A stretch of DNA of 40,913 nt from a virus: IMG/VR virus record IMGVR_UViG_3300047552_000206, positions 1 to 40,913 of that record; one strand, 5' to 3'. The position numbers and the translations under genes were made by a program. This document shows, one piece after another, positions 7,530-36,175 of the stretch. The notes below the pieces were generated by a model. That model was not told the origin of the DNA. It saw nothing but the letters and a program-made list of their open reading frames with translations, and did no database searches. Position 1 is the first letter of the stretch. The number at the start of each line of letters is the position of its first letter.

Positions 7530-7866
7530 AGACCCAAAGAATAGTTCAAGACCTGGGCGTAAAGGCGGCGCAAGAAAAGGCGCTGGTAGACCAAAAGGCT
7601 CAAAGACTAGAGTAACGACCGAATCAATCTTATCTAGAATTGAAGAAGTAACTGGTAAAGATTACGTCACTATTATCGCAGAACAACTCAATATTGCTAT
7701 TAATACTGGTGATGTTAGATTAGTTAAAGATTACCTAGATATGGTAGGTAAAAAGGTTATTGCTGATAAGAGCGAAACTGATATTACTAGTGGCGGTGAA
7801 AAACTACAAACAGCGTTTAACTTTGCTCCTGCTGTACTACCTGAATGGGAAGATAGTAACGAATGA
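7516..7866 (+). CDS. Terminase small subunit
   Basis: A 116-residue protein expected to recognise phage DNA for packaging. It starts with a very basic, glycine-rich stretch (GRKGGARKGAGRPKGSK, about residues 14-30) seen in many small terminases and DNA-binding phage proteins, then a helical domain ending with acidic residues. An AGGA site precedes the ATG, which lies inside the end of the spanin gene. Its stop codon forms an ATGA overlap with the intervening nuclease gene, and the large subunit follows. The call combines sequence pattern and location; no direct functional motif is decisive. Confidence 0.7.
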   Translation: MTENKDPKNSSRPGRKGGARKGAGRPKGSKTRVTTESILSRIEEVTGKDYVTIIAEQLNIAINTGDVRLVKDYLDMVGKKVIADKSETDITSGGEKLQTAFNFAPAVLPEWEDSNE

Positions 7867-8360
7867 TAGATTATAAGAAAAAATTTAGAGAACATAAGTC
7901 AAATGCCAAGAAAAGAAACATTCCTTTTCTATTCACGTTTGAAACATGGATGAAAGTGTGGGAAGAGTCTGGTAAACTTCACTTAAGAGGACATGGGAAA
8001 GACAAATATTGTATGGCTAGGCATAACGATGTGGGTCCATATTCGCCAGAAAACGTATCTATTCAGACAAATCTAAAAAATAACACAGACGGTGGAATTA
8101 GAAGAGATTATGATTTATGGTATAAAGAAGTACTCAAGTCAAGAAAGAATGAAGATTGGATTCGCTCGATATCAGGAGAGGGTAATGGTTTCTTCAAGGG
8201 AGCCGTAATCGGCACGAATAAAATTACTGGAGAAACCATCACATTGATTGGCAAGACAGCTATTGACAATGCTGGATTTTATCACCAACACGTTTATAAG
8301 TGTGTCAATGGTAAACTTAAATCACATGGAGGTTACACTTGGGTACGCCAACCAATCTGA
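7863..8360 (+). CDS. Putative HNH-like homing endonuclease
   Basis: A 165-residue protein wedged between the two terminase genes, overlapping both. Residues 4-75 match a pattern common in phage HNH-type free-standing nucleases: a basic helix, FTFETWMKVWEESGKL, then CMARHNDVGPYSPENVSI ending at an asparagine (NLKNN). The last 50 residues (GTNKITGETITLIGKTA through GGYTWV) resemble NUMOD-type DNA-binding modules. It is therefore probably a selfish endonuclease that cuts near the terminase genes. No classical zinc-binding cysteine pairs are visible, so the nuclease call is by pattern only. The terminase large-subunit start and its GGAGG site are inside its last codons. Confidence 0.6.
   Translation: MIDYKKKFREHKSNAKKRNIPFLFTFETWMKVWEESGKLHLRGHGKDKYCMARHNDVGPYSPENVSIQTNLKNNTDGGIRRDYDLWYKEVLKSRKNEDWIRSISGEGNGFFKGAVIGTNKITGETITLIGKTAIDNAGFYHQHVYKCVNGKLKSHGGYTWVRQPI
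8328..8341 (+). promoter_or_regulatory. Ribosome-binding site and TTG start of terminase large subunit
   Basis: GGAGG at 8328-8332, six bases, then TTG at 8339. The site is embedded in the glycine codons of the nuclease gene. No ATG or GTG occurs before the Walker A motif, so this rare start codon decides the large-subunit N-terminus. Confidence 0.7.
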
Positions 8361-20311: not shown

Positions 20312-23300
20312 ATGGGTTGGTTCAGCAGTTTAGTAAGTTCAGTTGTAGGCACAGTCAAAGCGATTGTTAAGAACCCAGTTACGGCGATTGCGGCAGTTGG
20401 TTTAGCAATCTATGCTCCAGCTCTTGGCGCTCGTATGCTAGGTAGTATGGTTGTTAGTAATCTCCTAGCACCAAAGCCCAAAGACCCTAGTGGCGGCGGT
20501 AGTGGTGGCAGTGATGGTAGTTCTACTGCTCAACAGGGCAATCCACAAAACTTATCACCTAATCCAGCTAATAAACTGCCAATGGTCTACGGCAAAGCGT
20601 TCATCTCACCAACAATCATTGATGCTAAGATTAGTAGTGATAACCAAACAATGTGGTATGTATTAGCACTTTGTGAAGCACCAGATGCTGGTGAAAGTGT
20701 GATTTCTTTTGGTGATATCTACTACGGCGAGAAGAAAGTAACTTACACTAGTGGCACTGGTCGTGTAACAGCACTAACTAGTAACCCAGGCACATCAAGC
20801 GAACAAGTAGATACTAAGATTGCCGACAATATGTGGATGTATTTCTTCAATGGTAGTGGCATACCGATCAACGGCACAACTGACACAGCATATACTGTAT
20901 TAGGTGACTCTAACATCGCAGCTGGCGCTCGTTGGGTAAGTGGTTCGCAGACTATGAGCAACACCATCTTTATGGTAGTTAAACTTGTTTATAGCAGTGA
21001 AGACGCAGTTACTGGTCTAGAGAACTTAGTAGTTGAGATTAACAACAATCAAAACGGCATTACTGATGGTTACAAGCCAGGTAGTGCTATGATGGACTAC
21101 TTGTTGAATGGCAGATATGGTGCTAATCTATCGTATGACCAAATCAATGCTAGCTCATTCACAGACTTAGATACATACGCTGACGAAGTAATCACTTATA
21201 CACCAGTTGGTGGTGGTGGCGCAAATCAACCACGATATAGATTAAACGGTGTAGTTGATACATCTCAAAGTATTATGACTAACTTGATGTCTATGGCAGA
21301 TAGTTGTGATTCATACATTCAGTTCAACGAAGCAACTGGTAAGTGGAGTGTAGTTGCTAACAAGAGTTTCCTACAAGCACCTAATGCTGTTGCTAATAAC
21401 ACGTTGTTGTTCGGTCTAGATAACAGCAACATCATTGGTGGTATCAATATCTCTCCACTAGACTTGAATTCTACGCCTAATGCGGTTGAATCTTCATTCT
21501 ACAACGCTAAGATGCGTGGTAAGCAAGACTATGCTTATGCTGAGACACCCGATAGATTAAAGAACTTCTATGAGCCACCAAATAAGCTACAGATTCGTTA
21601 TCAGTTCGTTAATGACAGTGTTCGTGCTCAGTATTTGAGTAACCGCAAGCTAGAGCAATGCCGTGCTGACTATATCGTTGATTTAACTACTGATTATTCT
21701 GCTATTGGCGTAAACGCAGGTGATGTAGTCAACTTAACTTATGAGCCACACGGCGGTAGTATCCCTAGTATCATTACTGGTATCACTGGTGATGGTAGTA
21801 AAGTAACAGTTACATACAACTCTACTCTAGTTAATCCATATACAGTTGGTCAGTCAATCACGATTGAAGGCAGTAATATCAGCAGTCACAACGGCGCTCA
21901 CATCATTACTGATATCGGACTTGGTTCATTCAAATATAGCGGCAGTGAAATCGCAGTGCCAACATTAACAAACGCTAAAGTGTATAGCGGTCTATCTTGG
22001 ACTGGTAAGCCATTCCGCGTTGTTCAAATTCAAGAGCAGCGTGATGATAGTGGCGTATTGATGTGTAAACTCCAGTTAAGCGAGTATAGCGAACAAGTAT
22101 ACGATAACTGGACTATCGAAGATTACGCGGTGCCTGACAACAACTATATGATTGACCCAGGTATTCTTGGTAAGCCAGCTGTGCCTACAATTGATCCGTT
22201 ATTCATCAAACCAGCTGACAATGTGCCTACATTCCAAGTTAAAGCAACTACACCAGCAACTGGTGTTACTATGGCTATGGAGTTCTGGTATGGTCCAACT
22301 GACGCTGTTACAGATAACAACTTCAAGCTATGGGACACTCAATATAACAGTTCGAAGCCACAGTATGGCGTATCACAAGAAGAAGTTATTACAGTTAGTG
22401 GCTTAGAAACAGGCACTTGGTATTGGCGTGTTCGCGCTATTGGCGCTACTCGTAAGTCTGAGTTCAGCGATAGTGTTTTGATTTCATGGGCACCAAGTGG
22501 CTCATTCACTGGTGATACTGGTGCTAAGACTGAACCGCCAGATATGGTTGTTGTTCCGCTCTTAACAGGTCAAGCTTGGCCCGACAATACTCGTGGTATT
22601 ATGCCAAGTGGTGGTGTATATGTAAGTCCAGTAGCTAACCCTGGTAGTATTCGCATCAGTTTCAGCGCTTCCGTATATGCTGATGACGCGGCTCTTACAG
22701 GCAATAACAGAATTAGTATCTATAACTGTATCGAAGTATGGAAATCAGTGTCAAGTAAAGTATGGGATAAGAAAATCTTCTCTATCAAGCACAATTACAG
22801 TTCATCTGCTACTGCCGCTACAGATAGAATTCACGCTATTGGTCTTAATACTGATCTGGTATCAACAGATGGCGGTATGACATGGTCACAACACGCAACA
22901 CCGACATCAAAGACTATTGCTGATGGTATTTCGTTGTCGTATACATATGGAGCTGGTGAAGGTCACGCTACATACGCAGTTGGACCATGGCAATTACGCG
23001 ATGGTGTTACAGTAACACCAGGAACAAGTGACCCTAACTTCTTTGCTGGAGCTGGTAATAGAAATTATACTGGTAGCGTAGTAATGCCAATCACTTATAA
23101 CACTAACTTAGTTGGTGATACCAGTGGAAGAGTTATTGGATCGTTCAATGGCATCGCAATTGCTGGTGGAGCTACATCGACATCAGTTGGTTACAAAAAG
23201 ACGGCTATAGCTGTTGGTGACAACGGCCTGATATACTTCTATTACAACGGTAGCGATAGTGTGCCAGTTCAGATTCCTAGTTCAACATACTGGAAACTAG

Positions 23301-24193
23301 AATCAAGTGGTGTGTTAAAGAACTTGTATGATGTTTACAGTAATAAATTAGGCACTGGCAATCAATACACTACTCTAGTTGTTGGCGGTAATGGCACTAT
23401 CTTGAAATCAGTTCGCGCTCATACTTACGGCTCTCAAACTAACCCTACATACAACGGTTACCCTATGGGTTCATGGTCTAGTGCGACAACTACCGATTTA
23501 GATGGTAACCCACTAGCTAATCACCTATATGCTGTTGGTGGTGATAACGGCACTAATGGTAATAGTGATGTATGGATTGCTGTTGGCGAGAAAGGCACAT
23601 TGCTGAGAAGTGCTGACAACGGTGATAGCTGGACTATGCTTGAAGTTACCGGCACTGATGGTAATACTATTACATCCGCTCTACGTGGTGTTAAATATGG
23701 AAATGGCAAGTGGGTAGCAGTTGGCGACAGCGGCACAATCATTACAAGCAGTGATGCTGGCTTAACATGGTCACAAGTTAACGTTGATTATTTGACTACT
23801 AACAATTACTATGACCGTAATTTCTATTCAGTTGACTGGGTTGGTGTAAGTAGTTGCTTTGTTATTGGTGGCGATAACATCATTCTTCGCAGCAGTGATT
23901 CTACTATTGATTTCACAATGAAATACAGCGGTAACCCAGCAGAAACTTACACGATGAAACGCCTATGGTATCGTGGCAGTTTAGCTAACTTGTCTACTGT
24001 AGGAACACCAGCATCAGTAGAAGGACAATTACTTAACGGACAAACAGTCGCATCAACAATCATTGATACTGACTACAAGAAAGGTGATGAGTTGAGTTAT
24101 TATCTAGTAATTGGTAATATTAAATCATCTACTAGTCCGTATGTAATCAAGTGCGGCGGCGCAGTCATCACCGCAACTGAGTACAAGAAATAA
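20312..24193 (+). CDS. Tail tip/central fibre protein (J-like) with beta-propeller
   Basis: A 1293-residue protein. The hydrophobic N-terminus (residues 1-50) followed by a glycine/serine linker, and the tail-hub region to about 600, resemble lambda J-like tip proteins. A fibronectin-III-like domain spans about 630-728 (ending GTWYWRVRAIG). Residues about 823-1206 contain sialidase-type Asp-box repeats (STDGGMTW, SADNGDSW, SSDAGLTW) alternating with GNGKWVAVGDSG-type strands, so probably a beta-propeller. An approximately 85-residue C-terminal domain follows. The protein should contact the host receptor and open the tail. An AGAAGG site overlaps the end of the upstream gene. Confidence 0.75.
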   Translation: MGWFSSLVSSVVGTVKAIVKNPVTAIAAVGLAIYAPALGARMLGSMVVSNLLAPKPKDPSGGGSGGSDGSSTAQQGNPQNLSPNPANKLPMVYGKAFISPTIIDAKISSDNQTMWYVLALCEAPDAGESVISFGDIYYGEKKVTYTSGTGRVTALTSNPGTSSEQVDTKIADNMWMYFFNGSGIPINGTTDTAYTVLGDSNIAAGARWVSGSQTMSNTIFMVVKLVYSSEDAVTGLENLVVEINNNQNGITDGYKPGSAMMDYLLNGRYGANLSYDQINASSFTDLDTYADEVITYTPVGGGGANQPRYRLNGVVDTSQSIMTNLMSMADSCDSYIQFNEATGKWSVVANKSFLQAPNAVANNTLLFGLDNSNIIGGINISPLDLNSTPNAVESSFYNAKMRGKQDYAYAETPDRLKNFYEPPNKLQIRYQFVNDSVRAQYLSNRKLEQCRADYIVDLTTDYSAIGVNAGDVVNLTYEPHGGSIPSIITGITGDGSKVTVTYNSTLVNPYTVGQSITIEGSNISSHNGAHIITDIGLGSFKYSGSEIAVPTLTNAKVYSGLSWTGKPFRVVQIQEQRDDSGVLMCKLQLSEYSEQVYDNWTIEDYAVPDNNYMIDPGILGKPAVPTIDPLFIKPADNVPTFQVKATTPATGVTMAMEFWYGPTDAVTDNNFKLWDTQYNSSKPQYGVSQEEVITVSGLETGTWYWRVRAIGATRKSEFSDSVLISWAPSGSFTGDTGAKTEPPDMVVVPLLTGQAWPDNTRGIMPSGGVYVSPVANPGSIRISFSASVYADDAALTGNNRISIYNCIEVWKSVSSKVWDKKIFSIKHNYSSSATAATDRIHAIGLNTDLVSTDGGMTWSQHATPTSKTIADGISLSYTYGAGEGHATYAVGPWQLRDGVTVTPGTSDPNFFAGAGNRNYTGSVVMPITYNTNLVGDTSGRVIGSFNGIAIAGGATSTSVGYKKTAIAVGDNGLIYFYYNGSDSVPVQIPSSTYWKLESSGVLKNLYDVYSNKLGTGNQYTTLVVGGNGTILKSVRAHTYGSQTNPTYNGYPMGSWSSATTTDLDGNPLANHLYAVGGDNGTNGNSDVWIAVGEKGTLLRSADNGDSWTMLEVTGTDGNTITSALRGVKYGNGKWVAVGDSGTIITSSDAGLTWSQVNVDYLTTNNYYDRNFYSVDWVGVSSCFVIGGDNIILRSSDSTIDFTMKYSGNPAETYTMKRLWYRGSLANLSTVGTPASVEGQLLNGQTVASTIIDTDYKKGDELSYYLVIGNIKSSTSPYVIKCGGAVITATEYKK

Positions 24194-26227: not shown

Positions 26228-26368
26228 ATGGCACTTCAATTTAGACGAGGCACAGAAGCCGAAAGATTAACAGTAGTATTTGCTGAAGGCGAATTAATTT
26301 ATATCACTGATACAAAAAAGATTTATATTGGTGATGGCGTTACCGTTGGTGGTATCTTGGTAGAATAA
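26228..26368 (+). CDS. 46-residue stand-alone fibre N-terminal domain
   Basis: A small protein consisting only of the attachment domain that starts the next gene: MALQFRRGTEAERLTVVFAEG here versus MSLQLRRGLEADRTTIVPAAG there, followed in both by GEL-Y-TDTKK-YIGDG. This Mtd/T4-like-cyanophage-type N-terminal domain normally fixes a fibre to the virion. As a free protein it could cap or trimerise fibres, or be the remnant of a lost fibre gene. It has no clear Shine-Dalgarno site; TTAAATAT precedes the ATG. Conservation of frame and codons suggests it is translated. Confidence 0.6.
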   Translation: MALQFRRGTEAERLTVVFAEGELIYITDTKKIYIGDGVTVGGILVE

Positions 26369-26377
26369 GGAAAATAA

Positions 26378-28405
26378 ATGAGTTTACAATTACGCAGAGG
26401 CTTAGAAGCCGACAGAACAACAATCGTGCCAGCAGCTGGTGAATTACTTTATGTAACTGATACTAAGAAACTATATGTTGGTGATGGCGCTACTAGTGGT
26501 GGCACTGCTGTTAGTGTTGGTGGTAGTGGTGGTGGCGGCCAGAACTATGCTCCATGGTCACGTAATACAGAATGGCTAACCTTACCAACCTTAACGGATA
26601 CCGACCAGAGATTTGCTGGCTTACACGCGGTAGAAGAAGATGGCAACTGGGTAGCACTAACAGCTACTACTAGTGTTGGACAATACCGCGTAGATTGGGG
26701 CGATGGTACCGTTGATTTAGTTGACAGCGGCGTTCAAGCGCAGCATATCTATGATTTCACTAATACTGCTCTGAATGGTAGTTTAACTACTAGTGGATAT
26801 AAACAAGCTATTGTTAGTGTTACTCCAGTTAGTGGTAACTTCTTGACATTTAGTTTAGGTGTAAGACATTCTGCTGGTCCGGCTACCTTATATAGTAGTG
26901 GCTGGTTAGATATTGCCTATGCGGGACAGAATACCACTTCGTTTACTACAGTTGGTCAAATTCAGGCGCGTAGATTAGAGCAATCAACTATCTTAAAGAA
27001 CGATGTTACTAACTGGACATCCTGCTATCAAAATTGTTACAAACTATCAAATATCGTTAGTCATTATACAGATAGTGGAACTAACTTCGACCAGATGTTC
27101 TACAACTGCTCGTCCCTACAAACTATTCCGTTATTAAATACTGGATTGGGAACTAACTTCACCCAGATGTTCTACAACTGCTCGTCCCTACAAACTATTC
27201 CGTTATTAAATACTGGATTGGGAACTATCTTCGCCCAGATGTTCTACGACTGCTCGTCCCTACAAACTATCCCCCTATTGAATACCGCAGCAGGAACTAA
27301 CTTCACCCAGATGTTCTCCTTCTGCTCGTCCCTACAAACTATTCCGTTATTAAATACTGGATTGGGAACTAACTTCGACCAGATGTTCTACAACTGCTCG
27401 TCCCTACAAACTATCCCCCTATTGAATACCGCAGCAGGAACTATCTTCGCCCAGATGTTCTACAACTGCTCGTCCCTACAAACTATCCCCCTATTGAATA
27501 CCGCAGCAGGAACTAACTTCGGCTCGATGTTCTCCTACTGCTCGTCCCTACAAACTATCCCCCTATTGAATACCGCAGCAGGAACTAACTTCACCCAGAT
27601 GTTCTACAACTGCTCGTCCCTACAAACTATTCCGTTATTAAATACTGGATTGGGAACTAACTTCACCCAGATGTTCTCCTTCTGCTCGTCCCTACAAACT
27701 ATTCCCCTATTGAATACCGCAGCAGGAACTATCTTCGCCCAGATGTTCTACAACTGCTCGTCCCTAAAGAAAATCTCTGCGCAATCGTTTAGATATTCAT
27801 TCGACGTGTCACCAGCATTATTAACATTAACGCAGTTAAACTCCGTCTATACTAACCTACCAGATATTGGTACCGCCGTAACATTCCAAGACACTGGTGA
27901 TACTATTACGCTGGCTAATCACGGTCTAGTAAACGGTAAGATTATTAAGTTCTCAGTTATCACAACAACTACTGGTATCGCAGTCAATACTAACTACTAT
28001 GTGGTTAACTCTACCGCTAATACATTCCAAGTTTCTACTACTAGTGGCGGCACAGCACTAGCATTAACAACTGATGGCACAGGATATATTGCTGGTAAAC
28101 TAGTTACTCTACAAGATACGGGTGATACTGTTACGCTTGCTAATCACGGTTATACCGCTAAGCAACCTATCACGTTCTCTGTTGTTAATACTACAACGGG
28201 TATCACAGCAGCTACTCAGTATTATGTGATTAACCCAACTACAAATACTTTCCAAGTTTCTACTACTAGTGGCGGCACAGCACTAGCATTAACTACAAAC
28301 GGCACAGCTATCGCATACGGTTCAACAACAATCACTGCCTCTACGTTTAGCAAGACTGGCTCAACACCAACAATCGCTCAAAACAAGGGCTGGATCGTTC
28401 TATAA
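26378..28405 (+). CDS. Tail fibre with mosaic 24-residue DUF285/BspA-like repeats
   Basis: A 675-residue adhesin. Domains in order: virion-attachment domain (1-45, TDTKKLYVGDG); glycine linker; PKD-like domain with DWGDG (about 104-108); ten 24-residue repeats of the form NF-x-QMFYNCSSLQTIPLLNT (residues 236-475), the DUF285/BspA leucine-rich pattern; two tandem 75-residue domains (501-647) with DTGDT-TLANHG and YYV-N-T-NTFQVSTTSGG; a short end. The repeats are nearly identical in DNA and mix a few variants in different combinations. It probably binds a host surface receptor. A good AAGGAAA site precedes the ATG. Confidence 0.75.
   Translation: MSLQLRRGLEADRTTIVPAAGELLYVTDTKKLYVGDGATSGGTAVSVGGSGGGGQNYAPWSRNTEWLTLPTLTDTDQRFAGLHAVEEDGNWVALTATTSVGQYRVDWGDGTVDLVDSGVQAQHIYDFTNTALNGSLTTSGYKQAIVSVTPVSGNFLTFSLGVRHSAGPATLYSSGWLDIAYAGQNTTSFTTVGQIQARRLEQSTILKNDVTNWTSCYQNCYKLSNIVSHYTDSGTNFDQMFYNCSSLQTIPLLNTGLGTNFTQMFYNCSSLQTIPLLNTGLGTIFAQMFYDCSSLQTIPLLNTAAGTNFTQMFSFCSSLQTIPLLNTGLGTNFDQMFYNCSSLQTIPLLNTAAGTIFAQMFYNCSSLQTIPLLNTAAGTNFGSMFSYCSSLQTIPLLNTAAGTNFTQMFYNCSSLQTIPLLNTGLGTNFTQMFSFCSSLQTIPLLNTAAGTIFAQMFYNCSSLKKISAQSFRYSFDVSPALLTLTQLNSVYTNLPDIGTAVTFQDTGDTITLANHGLVNGKIIKFSVITTTTGIAVNTNYYVVNSTANTFQVSTTSGGTALALTTDGTGYIAGKLVTLQDTGDTVTLANHGYTAKQPITFSVVNTTTGITAATQYYVINPTTNTFQVSTTSGGTALALTTNGTAIAYGSTTITASTFSKTGSTPTIAQNKGWIVL
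27083..27802 (+). repeat. Ten tandem 72-bp coding repeats
   Basis: Units start every 72 bp from 27083 to 27731, encoding 24 residues each. Variant positions: NFD, NFT, IFA or NFG at the start; YN, YD, SF or SY after MF; and GL or AA before the last G-T. The GL and AA halves also use different synonymous codons for I-P-L-L-N-T (ATT CCG TTA TTA versus ATC CCC CTA TTG). Unit nine begins ATT CCC CTA TTG, a hybrid of the two. The tenth unit diverges after CSSL. Confidence 0.95.
28025..28293 (+). repeat. 44-bp identical segments of tandem fibre domains
   Basis: The stretch at 28025-28068 is repeated exactly at 28250-28293, 225 bp (75 codons) later, within the two tandem C-terminal domains of the fibre. 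The perfect identity points to recent duplication or gene conversion. Confidence 0.9.
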
Positions 28406-30048: not shown

Positions 30049-32823
30049 ATGCCAGTAATCAATACGCAGGGTAGTTTAAGCAGCACAGATGAGTTCGGAC
30101 CAGGTAGTGTTCCATATATTGTAAATTTAGTCGGCGCTAAGAAGATCGTTCCTAGTTATGATGGCACCAGATTTTTGGCTCTAACTACTAATGGCGCATC
30201 TGTTTATGTTTGTCAAGCCGGTGGTGGAGAATACAGTATAGAATATACGATACCACTTCCAACTGATTATTCAGATACCATGGATGGAGATTTGAATGGA
30301 GCTGGGGATAAACTTCTTATTTCTTTCTCTGCCGCTGGTGGAGCAGTAGCAACAAACAATGGTAGAGTATGCGCGTATACTCGTATTTCTGATTTACCAG
30401 TGACATTTACAGATACTGGAGACCTAGTAACATTAACAAATCACGGGTTAAAGTCAGGTAAACAAATCACATTTAAATCAATCACAACCACAACTGGTAT
30501 CACTAAAGATACTATATATTATGTCATTAACCCAACAGCAACAACATTTCAGGTGGCAGCTACACTTGGAGGAGCAGCTATTGCTCTTACAACTAATGGA
30601 TCTGGCGTATTAAAGGGTTATTGGAATCTAATTACGACAGTTAATGAATCTAGCACCACTACTGGTTATAAATTTGGTCAGTCAGTATCCGTGAGCGACG
30701 GTAATGGTTCAGTGATTGGGCAATATAGTTCAGGTGACACTACGCCAGGCAAATACGATGGCTATCTATACTACTATGGCAATATCTTTTCTACATCTGC
30801 TACTGTAGCATCAACCCGAACTCAGTTAATCAGATACACCGCATCAGATGCTAGTAATCCAACGTGGCCACGTAATCCACTTATTACTAATGATGGTAAC
30901 TATGTTAAAGTTCATCAGCGTGACGCATTATCAAACTCAATGATAGTAGCGGATACATTTAGCGTAACTACCGGTAAACAAGTAACTATACCAACTACAG
31001 TAATTTATCACTCTATGAGTGTTAAGCCGGATTCATTGGACTGGTCTAAGAATAAATTAGGCAGACTATTCTCATCTAAGATTCTAAGTGGCGATAGTAA
31101 TGTATCGTTCGAGATGACTATTGATATGGATGTATTAAATATCTCGTGGGGTTTATTAAAAGTAGTAGTAGAAACTCCATGGTCACCAACAAATAGAACA
31201 CCATATATCATTGAAGTTACAACTGATATAACAAACGATAGCTTATCAATTAGCCTATCATCTAAATCATCTGGTACAGTTTCTGTTGATTGGGGTGATA
31301 GTTCTGCTGTAGCAACTATTACTACTACAAACAATGCGGCATCTATTGCCACTCATACATATGTAGCGACAGGTTCTTATCAAATAAAGATTAAATCTTC
31401 TACTGGTTATATTAAAGCATTTATACCAACAAGTGGCTATGATGATACTAGATTACGTAGAGTTATACAATGGGGCAATCAACGTTTCTATGATATGCGA
31501 TCTATGTTTAGACGCAGTATAGAACTAACATCATTTGGAGCCGATATACCAGATACCAGTGAATGTACCGATATGACATCTATGTTCTATGGAGCAATAA
31601 AATTTAATCAATCATTAAATGACTGGGATGTAGGTAAAGTAAAATATTTTGATAGTATGTTTGCCCAGACGCAGCTATTTAACCAGCCATTAAGTCAATG
31701 GTCTACAGATAGTGCTCTAACAATGAATACTATGTTTGATAATTCTCAAGTATTTAATCAAGATTTAAGTAACTGGTGTGTGAAGAATATTACAACTCTT
31801 CCAGCTAATTTTACTAGTCCTGCCCAAACTCTACCATTGCCAGTTTGGGGCACTTGTCCTTATCCTAGATCATCAACTACTATTGTGGCTATCACAAAGG
31901 ATTATTCATTTACTTCTGGTACCACTGTTAATATTGCCCCTGTTACATCAACATCTCTGTTATATTCACACGCACTTGTTCCAACATCAGGCACATCAAC
32001 ATCAGTATCATTTGAAACTGAAAGAGCAGCTACGGTCAGTATTGTTCACGCAACAGGCGGCCAATCACCATACGTATATAGTATATCTCCAACATTGCCG
32101 CCATATTTAAGTTTAAATACTAGCACTGGCAATATCACTACACCATCAAATAATACTACATCTATGCCAGTTACAAAATACTATATCACTTCTAAAGATA
32201 TCTATAATAATACAGTTACCACTGATATAGACATTAATGTAACTATTAGACCATTATATGTTGATTTCGAATCAGTTACATTATTCTACTTAAATAAAGG
32301 CGTAGCAGCAGATCCTCTACATTTAACCGACGCATATTATGGACAAAAGCCATATACGTATTCAATTTCCCCAGCGCCAACTTCTGGATTGACTTATTTG
32401 AATGGAATATTATCTGGAACTCCTACTGCTACTGGCATAACTGAATATACTGTGTCTGTTACTGATTCAGTTCCAGTAAAGTCAGCTGAAAAGAAATATA
32501 CAGTTCACGTATATGATGGTAATATGACTAAGTATACACAAGTTAACGGGAGCGTAAATACTGGTGGGACCGGTATAGTTAGTTTTACTATTAAATCATC
32601 ATCAGCAAATGAATATTTTAAAATTTTATGGGGTTCTAATTGGGGTGGCACATATCAAACTGTTTATTTCGAAACAGCTAATACAAGCAGAACATTCTCC
32701 ATAACTTTATCAACTACTAATAGCCCTAACGGAGCAACTGTTTCTGGACTTGGATATTCCTATACTATTAGAGTATATGGCTTAACGAAACCAACAGTAA
32801 CATCAACCTTTTCAGTAATTTAA
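30049..32823 (+). CDS. Large adhesin with DUF285, PKD and Ig-like domains
   Basis: A 924-residue protein. Order: N-terminal region of unknown fold (1-115); a DTGDLVTLTNHG/YYVINPTATTFQV domain (about 117-187) like the tandem domains at 27878-28318; a linker region; a PKD-like domain with DWGDSS (about 413-418) ending in THTYVATGSYQI; a classical DUF285/BspA-like leucine-rich region (about 482-604: MTSMFYGAIKFNQSLNDWDV, FNQPLSQW, MFDNSQVFNQDLSNWCV); then two He_PIG-like Ig domains (about 650-823, with YSISPTLPPYLSL and ILSGTPT) and a C-terminal strand region. It ends 4 nt before a second large gene that begins inside an Ig domain, so the two may once have been one gene. GAAAGAAA precedes the ATG. 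Confidence 0.65.
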   Translation: MPVINTQGSLSSTDEFGPGSVPYIVNLVGAKKIVPSYDGTRFLALTTNGASVYVCQAGGGEYSIEYTIPLPTDYSDTMDGDLNGAGDKLLISFSAAGGAVATNNGRVCAYTRISDLPVTFTDTGDLVTLTNHGLKSGKQITFKSITTTTGITKDTIYYVINPTATTFQVAATLGGAAIALTTNGSGVLKGYWNLITTVNESSTTTGYKFGQSVSVSDGNGSVIGQYSSGDTTPGKYDGYLYYYGNIFSTSATVASTRTQLIRYTASDASNPTWPRNPLITNDGNYVKVHQRDALSNSMIVADTFSVTTGKQVTIPTTVIYHSMSVKPDSLDWSKNKLGRLFSSKILSGDSNVSFEMTIDMDVLNISWGLLKVVVETPWSPTNRTPYIIEVTTDITNDSLSISLSSKSSGTVSVDWGDSSAVATITTTNNAASIATHTYVATGSYQIKIKSSTGYIKAFIPTSGYDDTRLRRVIQWGNQRFYDMRSMFRRSIELTSFGADIPDTSECTDMTSMFYGAIKFNQSLNDWDVGKVKYFDSMFAQTQLFNQPLSQWSTDSALTMNTMFDNSQVFNQDLSNWCVKNITTLPANFTSPAQTLPLPVWGTCPYPRSSTTIVAITKDYSFTSGTTVNIAPVTSTSLLYSHALVPTSGTSTSVSFETERAATVSIVHATGGQSPYVYSISPTLPPYLSLNTSTGNITTPSNNTTSMPVTKYYITSKDIYNNTVTTDIDINVTIRPLYVDFESVTLFYLNKGVAADPLHLTDAYYGQKPYTYSISPAPTSGLTYLNGILSGTPTATGITEYTVSVTDSVPVKSAEKKYTVHVYDGNMTKYTQVNGSVNTGGTGIVSFTIKSSSANEYFKILWGSNWGGTYQTVYFETANTSRTFSITLSTTNSPNGATVSGLGYSYTIRVYGLTKPTVTSTFSVI

Positions 32824-32827
32824 TATT

Positions 32828-35800
32828 ATGAACCCAATTTATACAATTTCGCCAGATTTACCACCAGGTCTTACATTCAATAGTTCTAATGGCACTATTT
32901 CCGGAACACCATCAGCTGTTCAATTAGCAAAGAATTATGCTATAACTGTTTCGTATACCAATGGTACATTAACTGAAACTGCTACAGATAATATTTCAAT
33001 AGCTATTGATAGAATTGAGTTGACCTTAGCTGCTAAAGAGCCTATTGTTACCATAGTAAAAAACACAGCTATGACTGCTAGATCATTCGTTGAAGTTAAT
33101 GGTGGATATCCACCATTAACTTATAGTGTTACTCCTAATCTACCTACTGGCATCACAATGAATGCTGCGACAGCAATAGTAAGTGGAACTCCAACATCTG
33201 CTAATTATCCTAGTGATTATACAATAATAGTAAGAGACTCATTATTAACAATTAGCTCGACGACAATTAATTTGACTGTAACACCTATTCCTATAACAGT
33301 TATTGTTAACAAACCATCATATAAATTTCTGTATGGTGAGATTCTTGCTACGTCTTATCCTATAACTGCTACTGGAGGTGAAGGCACATTGACATATTCA
33401 ATATCGCCAGCTCTACCTAATGGAATATTATTAAATTCCAATACTGGTAGTATATCTGGTACTGCTCTAGACTCATCAATTGCTACTAATTATACAATAC
33501 TAGTTACTGACGGTGTAGGAACACAAATTTCTGCTCAGTTCAGTATAGAAGTTTACATTGAGACATTGGTATTAAATACCGCTTCTAGTAATTTATATTA
33601 CACAAAGGGGGAATTGATTTCATCGACTAATATTTCTAAAGCCTCTGGTGGAGTTATTCCATACAAATATTCACTTTCTCCAGTAATAAGTGGAGTTACA
33701 TTCGATACAGCTACTGGTAATATTAGTGGCACTCCTACTACAATCAATACATCCCTAAGCACTACGGTTAATAGTAATATTATTAATAATAGTGTGTTCG
33801 GTATCGGTGGTGGATATACATCTGTTGTATATGGTAATGGAGTTTGGGTAGCTAAAGGTTGGGATGGAGTAAGTAGTTTTATTAGTTATTCTAAAGATTT
33901 TTCAAAAACGTGGACCAGAGTTGATTTAATTAGCGGTGTCGGTAAGTTAATGTATGGAGCTGGTAAGTTTACACTTGGTGATTCACAATATTCATATGAT
34001 GGGGTAACATGGTATAACTCAGTAAATGGGGCATCTATAACTGGTCCAACGGCATATGGCAATGGCATTTTTGTTGTAATATCAAGTGCTTCTGGTGATT
34101 CTTCTGCTAGTATTTCTAAAGATGGTATAACTTGGGTGGGCACATCATTACCAACTACTGATGGATATCATAGTTGGTCATCTGTTGTATGGGGTAAAGA
34201 TAAATTTGTTGCTATTTCCGATGGCGACATTGGCGATGGAGGCACAACAACATATGCTATCTCAAAAGATGGCATTTCTTGGGAAAAGAAAACACTACCA
34301 TTACAATCTAGATGGTCATCTATTACATATGGTAATGGGGTGTTCGTGATTGTATCAAAAAGAAAAACTACAGTTGGTGTATCATCTACGTGTTATTCTT
34401 CTGATGGTATAACTTGGAATATTGGCTCCGGTATACGCACTACCGTAAATTGGTCGTCAATCTCGTATGGAGAAGGCACATTTATTGCTACTGATTATGG
34501 ATTTGGTGGTGATAATTATTTAGCTCGTAGTTCTAATGGTAGCAACTGGTCTATCGAATACACAAATGCCCATAAATGGTGGTCTGAGATTGCTTATGGT
34601 GGTGGAGTATTTGTAATTGTTTCTGAAGTTGGGGTATTACAAAAATTACCAGTTAATAAAATAACAACTATAGAGTCTACAACAAAAACATATTCTATAA
34701 CTGTAATAGATGATAAAAAAACTAGCGTAACTAATAATAAAATTATAGTAATTAGAGAACCAGTAACAGTAGTTACTATGACTCCAAATATAACTCTATA
34801 TTCATCAGTGAAAACTGATAATTTATTTGTAGTGTCAGCTTCCGGCGGCACTAATAGATTTAAATCATATACTATAAGTCCTTCGTTGCCAACAGGTTTA
34901 ACATTTAATCAAACTACATCTATTATTTCTGGCACACCTACGGTGAATATGAGTAAAAAAACATATACTATTACTGCTACTGATACAGAAGGTAGAGTTG
35001 GCTCAGTAGATATCAATATAACCATAACAGATGTGCCATTGAGTATTAGTATGCTAAATGGTGGTATTTTTAATATTACAAAGAAAACTAATACATATAT
35101 TTTACCAGCATTAGTCTCTGGAGGGAAATCACCATATACATATAGCTCATCATCATTAGTGCCTTCATTAACTATGAGCAGTATTAATGGTTCGATTTCT
35201 GGAATTACAAATACAGCAACTAATCAAACTTGGGATTATTCTAGTTATATGCCAGAATCAGCAACTACTATAGTCACTAGTGGTAACAATATATTAGTTT
35301 CAGTTTCTGAAAATGGTAGGTCTGTATATTCATCAGATGGCAAAACGTGGACTAGAGGCGGGCAATTACCACAAGGCGGCGGTTATAGTTGTATTGCCTT
35401 TGGCAATAATATATTTGTGGCAATTAATCGTAGCGGCACGTGCGCTTATTCTTCAAATGGCATATCTTGGACACAGGCAACAACTGGCATAAACGAGAGT
35501 TTTTCAATTTCATATGGAGATGGAGTATTTGTTGCTGTTAATGAGAACAATTATAGTGCTAGATCTACTGATGGCATAAATTGGTCATTATCTACTATGC
35601 CAACTAGTGATACTTGGAGAGTGGCCTATGGAAATGGGTTATTTGTTGCTGTTGGACATTCTACTCAATATACGGCTGGGTCTAATAATGTTGCTATTTC
35701 TAATGATATGGGTTTAACTTGGACAGCAAGAAAGATTCCTGAAGTTGCCCAATGGAGAAGTATTGCATACGGTAATGGTGTTTTTGTATGTGTTGCAGGT

Positions 35801-36175
35801 AGTGACACAGGTAGTTTTACTAAAAAATCTGCTGTTTCAAAAGATGGTGATATTTGGACAATATATAATAATTTACCAACTATTTCACCTTGGGAATCAG
35901 TGTCGTTTATTAATGGAATGTTTATTGCTATTGGGGCCGGGGTACGAACAGCAGAACGCGGAACAGCTTACTCAATGGATGGACAAATTTGGAAAGATTT
36001 AAAAGCATCACCGTGGTCTCTTTGGTATGGGGTGACTGGCACAAAAGATTATTTGGTACTTGTTGCGTATAGTGGAACTATTGGATTAATACCAAATATT
36101 TCAACATATACAGTTACAGCAACTGATTCTAGTGGCTCATCAGTATCTGGTAATTTTGCTATTATAGTGACATAA
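32828..36175 (+). CDS. Large adhesin: Ig-like domains with two nested beta-propellers
   Basis: A 1115-residue protein with about six He_PIG-like Ig domains marked by the pair YTISPDLPPGLTF...GTISGTP. The fourth (about 241-640) and sixth (about 738-1115) are each interrupted at the same loop, after N/S-ISG, by a beta-propeller of repeated YGNGVFV-V...S-DGITW blades (about 323-600 and 802-1085); the Ig fold then resumes with TYTVTATD-type strands. The protein starts directly in the middle of an Ig domain and lacks a ribosome-binding site, so it may be the displaced second half of the upstream gene, translated by reinitiation. Its DNA is visibly more A/T-rich than neighbouring fibres, suggesting recent acquisition. 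Likely a receptor-binding or glycan-binding tail appendage. Confidence 0.65.
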   Translation: MNPIYTISPDLPPGLTFNSSNGTISGTPSAVQLAKNYAITVSYTNGTLTETATDNISIAIDRIELTLAAKEPIVTIVKNTAMTARSFVEVNGGYPPLTYSVTPNLPTGITMNAATAIVSGTPTSANYPSDYTIIVRDSLLTISSTTINLTVTPIPITVIVNKPSYKFLYGEILATSYPITATGGEGTLTYSISPALPNGILLNSNTGSISGTALDSSIATNYTILVTDGVGTQISAQFSIEVYIETLVLNTASSNLYYTKGELISSTNISKASGGVIPYKYSLSPVISGVTFDTATGNISGTPTTINTSLSTTVNSNIINNSVFGIGGGYTSVVYGNGVWVAKGWDGVSSFISYSKDFSKTWTRVDLISGVGKLMYGAGKFTLGDSQYSYDGVTWYNSVNGASITGPTAYGNGIFVVISSASGDSSASISKDGITWVGTSLPTTDGYHSWSSVVWGKDKFVAISDGDIGDGGTTTYAISKDGISWEKKTLPLQSRWSSITYGNGVFVIVSKRKTTVGVSSTCYSSDGITWNIGSGIRTTVNWSSISYGEGTFIATDYGFGGDNYLARSSNGSNWSIEYTNAHKWWSEIAYGGGVFVIVSEVGVLQKLPVNKITTIESTTKTYSITVIDDKKTSVTNNKIIVIREPVTVVTMTPNITLYSSVKTDNLFVVSASGGTNRFKSYTISPSLPTGLTFNQTTSIISGTPTVNMSKKTYTITATDTEGRVGSVDINITITDVPLSISMLNGGIFNITKKTNTYILPALVSGGKSPYTYSSSSLVPSLTMSSINGSISGITNTATNQTWDYSSYMPESATTIVTSGNNILVSVSENGRSVYSSDGKTWTRGGQLPQGGGYSCIAFGNNIFVAINRSGTCAYSSNGISWTQATTGINESFSISYGDGVFVAVNENNYSARSTDGINWSLSTMPTSDTWRVAYGNGLFVAVGHSTQYTAGSNNVAISNDMGLTWTARKIPEVAQWRSIAYGNGVFVCVAGSDTGSFTKKSAVSKDGDIWTIYNNLPTISPWESVSFINGMFIAIGAGVRTAERGTAYSMDGQIWKDLKASPWSLWYGVTGTKDYLVLVAYSGTIGLIPNISTYTVTATDSSGSSVSGNFAIIVT

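Follow-up and report, generated by a model that had tools for sequence, protein, structure and literature searches.

A Probable Tail Fiber Gene With a Leucine-Rich Repeat Array

The window, that is, the whole stretch of DNA analyzed here, is a 40,913-base contig of an uncultured virus of bacteria (IMG/VR record IMGVR_UViG_3300047552_000206) and represents an incomplete genome. Its gene order is of the siphovirus type, with terminase, portal, and major head protein genes and then a lambda-type tape measure gene (16743). A tip protein that resembles protein J of Methylophilaceae phage P19250A is followed by a row of large fiber-type genes, one of which carries a tandem array of leucine-rich repeats (LRRs, table 1). 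The product of this gene matches the Pfam families DUF285 (2.1e-30), LRR_5 (1.7e-21), and Mtd_N (2.2e-12), and its C-terminal part is covered by the PHROG tail fiber family phrog_9370. The Mtd_N domain, the phrog_9370 match, and the position of the gene downstream of the tape measure and tip protein place the protein among the probable tail fibers, and its Mtd_N-type domain is the probable point of attachment to the tail. The segment that precedes the LRRs in the window is PKD-like, the PKD family scoring above the Pfam cut-off only in Synechococcus phage S-CBWM1.

Table 1. The array-bearing fiber gene and its parts, in window coordinates
Feature	Position	Strand	Basis or remark
Tail-fiber-type gene, 675 aa, carries the array	26378..28405	+	ORF; Pfam; PHROG
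Mtd_N-type N-terminal domain	26387..26494	+	PF18454, residues 4-39
PKD-like WGDGT segment before the LRR array	26675..26758	+	WGDGTVD motif aligned with S-CBWM1, L014, and L075
Degenerate 24-aa LRR unit 0 (NWTSCYQNCYKLSNIVSHYTDSGT)	27011..27082	+	In register with the array
Full LRR units of 72 bp, nine in number, variable blocks recombined (codons 1/3/4, 7/8, 15-22)	27083..27730	+	
Half unit 10 (IFAQMFYNCSSL), where the repeat ends	27731..27766	+	
C-terminal LRR cap (KKISAQSFRYSFDVSPALLTLTQLNSVYTNL...)	27767..27880	+	Low confidence in both structure models
Tail fiber module of ~225 bp, two copies (FQDTGDTITLANHG...TTSGGTALALTT)	27887..28307	+	TRF; phrog_4711/phrog_9370

Several neighboring genes share parts with this fiber gene or with the tip protein. 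A separate 46-aa ORF immediately 5' of the fiber gene (26228-26368) consists almost entirely of an Mtd_N domain (PF18454, 1.8e-11) and is possibly the leftover of a lost fiber or an independent docking peptide. Another fiber-type gene (30049-32823) contains DUF285 of the ordinary "FNQ" kind without near-identical DNA repeats, together with one copy of the module that is present twice in the array-bearing gene. A gene of 1,115 aa (32828-36175) encodes five He_PIG Ig-like stretches, and the blocks that interrupt these stretches are similar to "YGNGVFVA" repeats present in the tip protein (20312-24193). At the other end of the gene order, an ORF preceding the terminase gene (7863-8360) displays a weak I-HmuI NUMOD-like match, under the cut-off, and is a possible homing endonuclease.

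Composition of the Array and Its Variable Sites

TRF delimits the array at 27077-27766 with a period of 72 bp, 9.6 copies, and a score of 981, in frame with the gene. An earlier note on this DNA, made from the sequence alone, had counted ten 72-bp units (27083-27802). The near-identical, in-register units stand, but nine of them are full and the last is a half unit, positions 27767-27802 being part of the cap and not of the repeat. The order of the units was re-derived and is exactly the one listed previously: NFD-YN-GL, NFT-YN-GL, IFA-YD-AA, NFT-SF-GL, NFD-YN-AA, IFA-YN-AA, NFG-SY-AA, NFT-YN-GL, NFT-SF-AA, and IFA-YN. A comparison with shuffled sequences gave 10 matches in the window and none in the shuffles, which excludes a chance origin of the array, and no additional copy of the unit was found elsewhere in the window.

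A total of 17 sites vary among the units, eight in the front half and nine in the back half. All eight front-half sites are located at codon positions 1-2 and change the amino acid (eight changing, none silent), an excess that is suggestive only as a sign of positive selection. The nine back-half sites fall into a GL and an AA haplotype, each marked by synonymous changes that are linked, in agreement with the earlier description of GL and AA halves that differ in their synonymous codons. Unit 9, which had been described as a codon-level hybrid, indeed combines the front of unit 4 with an AA-type back, and its breakpoint is located between unit positions 45 and 48.

Repeat Family and Predicted Fold

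The assignment of the array to the DUF285/BspA-like LRRs, also proposed in the earlier note, is upheld by Pfam scores far above the cut-offs (DUF285, PF03382, 105.3 vs. 25 bits; LRR_5, PF13306, 76.9 vs. 27.7 bits). Furthermore, the NCBIfam PARCEL repeat TIGR02167 matches 10 stretches in tandem (87.7 bits, cut-off 30 bits).

A structure model based on the single sequence is a solenoid without a significant fold match. An AlphaFold model built from six homologous arrays reached a pLDDT of about 83-96 across most of the array, and a Foldseek search with this alignment-based model identified 4gt6 as the best solved LRR structure (E = 8.9e-6), with further matches to 4h09, to TpLRR of T. pallidum, and to BspA-family proteins of phages. 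Apart from the short TpLRR (0.59, normalized by target length), the overall TM-scores are low; a difference in solenoid curvature and disorder at the ends of the model may account for the low values. Thus, the array is predicted to fold as an LRR solenoid. Conserved hydrophobic residues alternate with variable ones, a pattern that suggests an outward orientation of unit positions 1, 3, 4, 7, and 8.

Recombination Between Units of the Window Array

The four-gamete test was failed by 45 of the 136 pairs of variable sites (minimum number of recombination intervals, Rm = 2), and a single crossover between two other units exactly reproduces seven of the nine full units. Tree-like descent was simulated with 24 mutations and 400 runs per setting (800 runs in total), one of the settings restricting mutation to the 17 observed sites. 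None of the 800 simulations reached 45 incompatible pairs or seven hybrids, and the maximum was 22 pairs. Because of the four-gamete, hybrid-unit, and simulation results, past recombination between units is well supported as the history of the window array, whose combinations of variants are incompatible with tree-like descent. The proposal that the variants are combined rather than inherited together is thereby borne out, and a check of the aligned units for breakpoints, as had been suggested, likewise supports the view that the combinations arose by recombination between units. This history does not by itself imply a continuing process, although the array of the window may still be changing.

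A single contig (IMGVR_UViG_3300042988_000146) is 100% identical to the window over the 6,562 bases compared, including the array, and contains equally many units in the same order. The two contigs have parallel coordinates, apparently from the same first base, and because of this common start the second may not be an independent assembly. It is shorter than the window and stops at position 27939. This end lies inside copy one of the 225-bp direct repeat (27887-28307), where its assembly may have broken. Searches of the viral contigs by fiber protein, tip protein, and DNA pattern identified no close relatives other than this identical contig and one with a 57% identical tip protein, which ends short of the fiber region, and no cellular or prophage relative was confirmed in a pattern scan of 84,980 genomes. 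No variant of the window's own array was found, its sole close relative being identical.

The order of the units could, in principle, have been produced by repeats that were collapsed or misjoined during assembly. All contigs compared in this study are metagenome assemblies, and the possible dependence of the contig with the identical array, which begins at the same base, leaves room for such an artifact. It is nevertheless very improbable, as exact internal repeats reach at most 83 bp in the window array and 32-56 bp in the arrays of the group L054-L059 (described below), under ordinary read length, and as a 12-unit plan is common to two contigs of that group, L056 and L059, that come from different metagenomes. 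At 83 bp, the longest exact repeat of the window array is short enough for the array to be resolved by 150-bp reads.

Homologous Arrays in Other Phages

A profile scan for related arrays identified 41 loci. A unit plan of 24 or 25 aa is common to the loci L014, L015 (identical in L016 and L052), and L075 and to phage S-CBWM1, and the hypervariable residues occupy the same unit positions in the window and in these four arrays. The variability per position in the window correlates with that in the independent 24-aa arrays of L014, L015, and L075 (rho = 0.79, 0.74, and 0.53, respectively). The units of these three arrays are rich in synonymous variation and look older than those of the window.

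Two pairs of contigs displayed conserved arrays: L075 and L076, which originate from different metagenomes and are 99.6% identical, have arrays that are identical over 1,200 bp, and L028 and L029 share a conserved array between diverged flanks. Array turnover therefore belongs to some lineages and not to all. Conservation of this kind is what neutral instability of a tandem repeat would allow, with units that duplicate and homogenize without any bearing on receptor choice and an array that serves as a spacer or scaffold of the fiber. Hybrid units, too, arise from unequal crossing-over alone. Neutral instability is nevertheless a less likely explanation of the array, because the variability is concentrated at the same five positions across independent arrays and because all of the front-half variable sites alter the protein, the latter being an excess that is suggestive only.

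Change of Unit Number in a Group of Related Phages

Two metagenomes contributed five contigs (L054, L055, L056, L057, and L059) with arrays of 26-aa DUF285 units in fiber proteins that have a phage head-spike-fiber domain, and an extra pattern scan for members of this group returned the same five and no others. The arrays contain 7 (L054), 12 (L056 and L059), or 17 units (L055 and L057), with end units of the same kinds. In a comparison with L055, the identity of the L054 flanks is 99.56% upstream (5,250 bp) and 97.5% downstream (812 bp), and the downstream flanks of L056 and L059 are 99.3-99.4% identical over 3,204 bp. Unit 4 of L054 consists of the front of unit 3 and the back of unit 14 of L055 with 0 mismatches, as would be expected from an 11-unit deletion via 56 bp of identity. 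No exact repeat in L055 is longer than the one that contains this junction (56 bp, well below read length), where a misjoin by the assembler is also possible. L056 and L059 end in six units that are identical to the final six of L055, and their earlier units differ. The arrays of L057 and L055 (also L017 and L018, respectively) differ only by one conversion-like tract of four substitutions within 10 bp, the L055 version of which is also present in a different unit of that array.

Overall, the differences within the group resemble the traces that unequal crossing-over and gene conversion would leave and, judged from these alignments, unit number and content have been changed by recombination in phages that carry a homologous array. 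The claim that recombination alters the number and order of units thus holds for sister phages with a homologous array (7, 12, and 17 units) and finds no counterpart in the window array, whose only relative is identical.

Two further differences were observed in this group outside the arrays. Compared with L055, both L056 and L059 have a replacement of fiber gene modules upstream of the array. In L056 the replaced segment is bordered on either side by near-identical sequence, which suggests a module exchange beside the array change. Downstream of the array, 13 differences between L017 (3718-3774) and L018 are clustered in 57 bp of contigs that are otherwise 99.6% identical. A search of GenBank for near-identical isolates of the L018 phage returned none.

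Retroelements and Palindromes as Alternative Mechanisms

A diversity-generating retroelement, as in the case of the BPP-1 Mtd protein, could also mutate the variable codons. The N-terminal domain of the array protein is Mtd_N, adenine is among the alleles at all but one of the eight front-half sites that vary, and codons 1, 3, 7, and 8, which are variable, follow an NNC pattern, all of which would fit such a mechanism. However, neither the window nor any of eight relative records yielded a reverse transcriptase, and the window contains no template repeat. One of the variable front-half sites is C/T only, the back-half variation is not adenine-based, and the related arrays lack the NNC/adenine pattern and vary at the same codons by ordinary codon changes. 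Retroelement mutagenesis was rejected on these grounds and is extremely improbable, although a distant retroelement might exist since the window contig is incomplete.

The palindromes that characterize PARCELs were also considered as sites of recombination. The window array contains no inverted repeats, and its palindrome scores, calculated for the consensus and for single units, are not clearly above those of shuffled sequences. This candidate was therefore rejected.

A Probable Recombining LRR Fiber

The probable explanation of the locus is an LRR fiber of the virion of a tailed phage that contacts the receptor and whose units recombine via the identical DNA between their variable blocks. 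Such a fiber would consist of an Mtd_N-type docking domain, the PKD-like segment, a BspA/DUF285 (PARCEL-type) LRR solenoid, and the fiber modules. Each 24-aa unit would form one turn of the solenoid, with a scaffold of conserved residues (F, M/W-F, C, L, I/F, P, L, N, and T), and the residues that vary at unit positions 1, 3, 4, 7, and 8 (and partly 21-22) would probably point outward and contact a ligand on the host surface. The identical stretches between the variable blocks (e.g., ~20 bp, TGCTCGTCCCTACAAACTAT) would provide the homology for crossing-over and gene conversion, and recombination between units would re-pair the variable blocks and alter the number of units while keeping the reading frame. 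The comparisons presented here indicate that the probable binding surface of an LRR fiber can change by recombination; receptor binding, a change of host range, and a selective benefit are inferred.

How phages keep pace with changes in host receptors is a central question, and few dedicated routes are known (retroelements, invertible fiber genes, and adhesin duplications). An LRR fiber that changes by unit recombination would add a route that needs no dedicated enzyme. The group of five contigs with 7, 12, and 17 units represents a natural series in which the proposed route can be tested.

Comparison With Known Repeat and Diversification Systems

The Mtd protein of BPP-1 is a diversified receptor-binding protein that has the N-terminal Mtd_N domain in common with the window protein; the variable part of the latter is an LRR and not a C-type lectin. 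The variable lymphocyte receptors of lampreys are LRR binding proteins that are diversified by combining LRR cassettes in a somatic process of enzyme-directed copying from donor cassettes. The likeness to the window, where recombination would occur inside one viral gene, is an analogy only, and no homology is claimed. That PARCEL/BspA LRR fibers form a general recombination-driven system for receptor diversification in phages, functionally similar to the lamprey receptors, is a tentative extension that we regard as doubtful. In such a system, the identical spacer DNA between modular units would allow the number of units and the pairing of binding residues to change within one phage lineage far faster than by background substitution.

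PARCELs (Palindromic Amphipathic Repeat Coding ELements, TIGR02167/DUF285) were described in cellular microbes as arrays of variable number for which intra-genomic shuffling was proposed (Roske et al. 2010, PMC2996958). Most PARCEL tracts in that study are unique domains, and shuffling there is chiefly the movement of ORFs (PMC2996958). The window array resembles PARCELs in its tandem repeat of ~25 aa with conserved hydrophobic and variable hydrophilic residues, in the variable number of units, and in its occurrence in a surface protein. It differs in that it is located in a phage fiber and consists of 24-aa units that are near-identical in DNA, with recombined blocks and no clear dyad symmetry. 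BspA/PARCEL LRR proteins are already known in phages: surface proteins of the BspA family with the same class of repeat as the window are found in Synechococcus phages S-CBWM1 (gp93) and S-SKS1, Aeromonas phage D3, and Vibrio phage pir03, the last of which contains a PARCEL (PMC7765460), and S-CBWM1 also has PKD together with CSSL units of 25 aa. Recombination at the level of units, whether in LRR fibers of near-identical phages or in these phage examples, was not found described in the open-licence papers searched. A change in the number of a small repeated segment is also known from the tail fiber adhesin gp37 of T4, a different protein, for which duplications of a small domain are reported to expand the host range (Tetart et al. 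1996, as cited in PMC9603124); the host-range effect is reported for T4 only.
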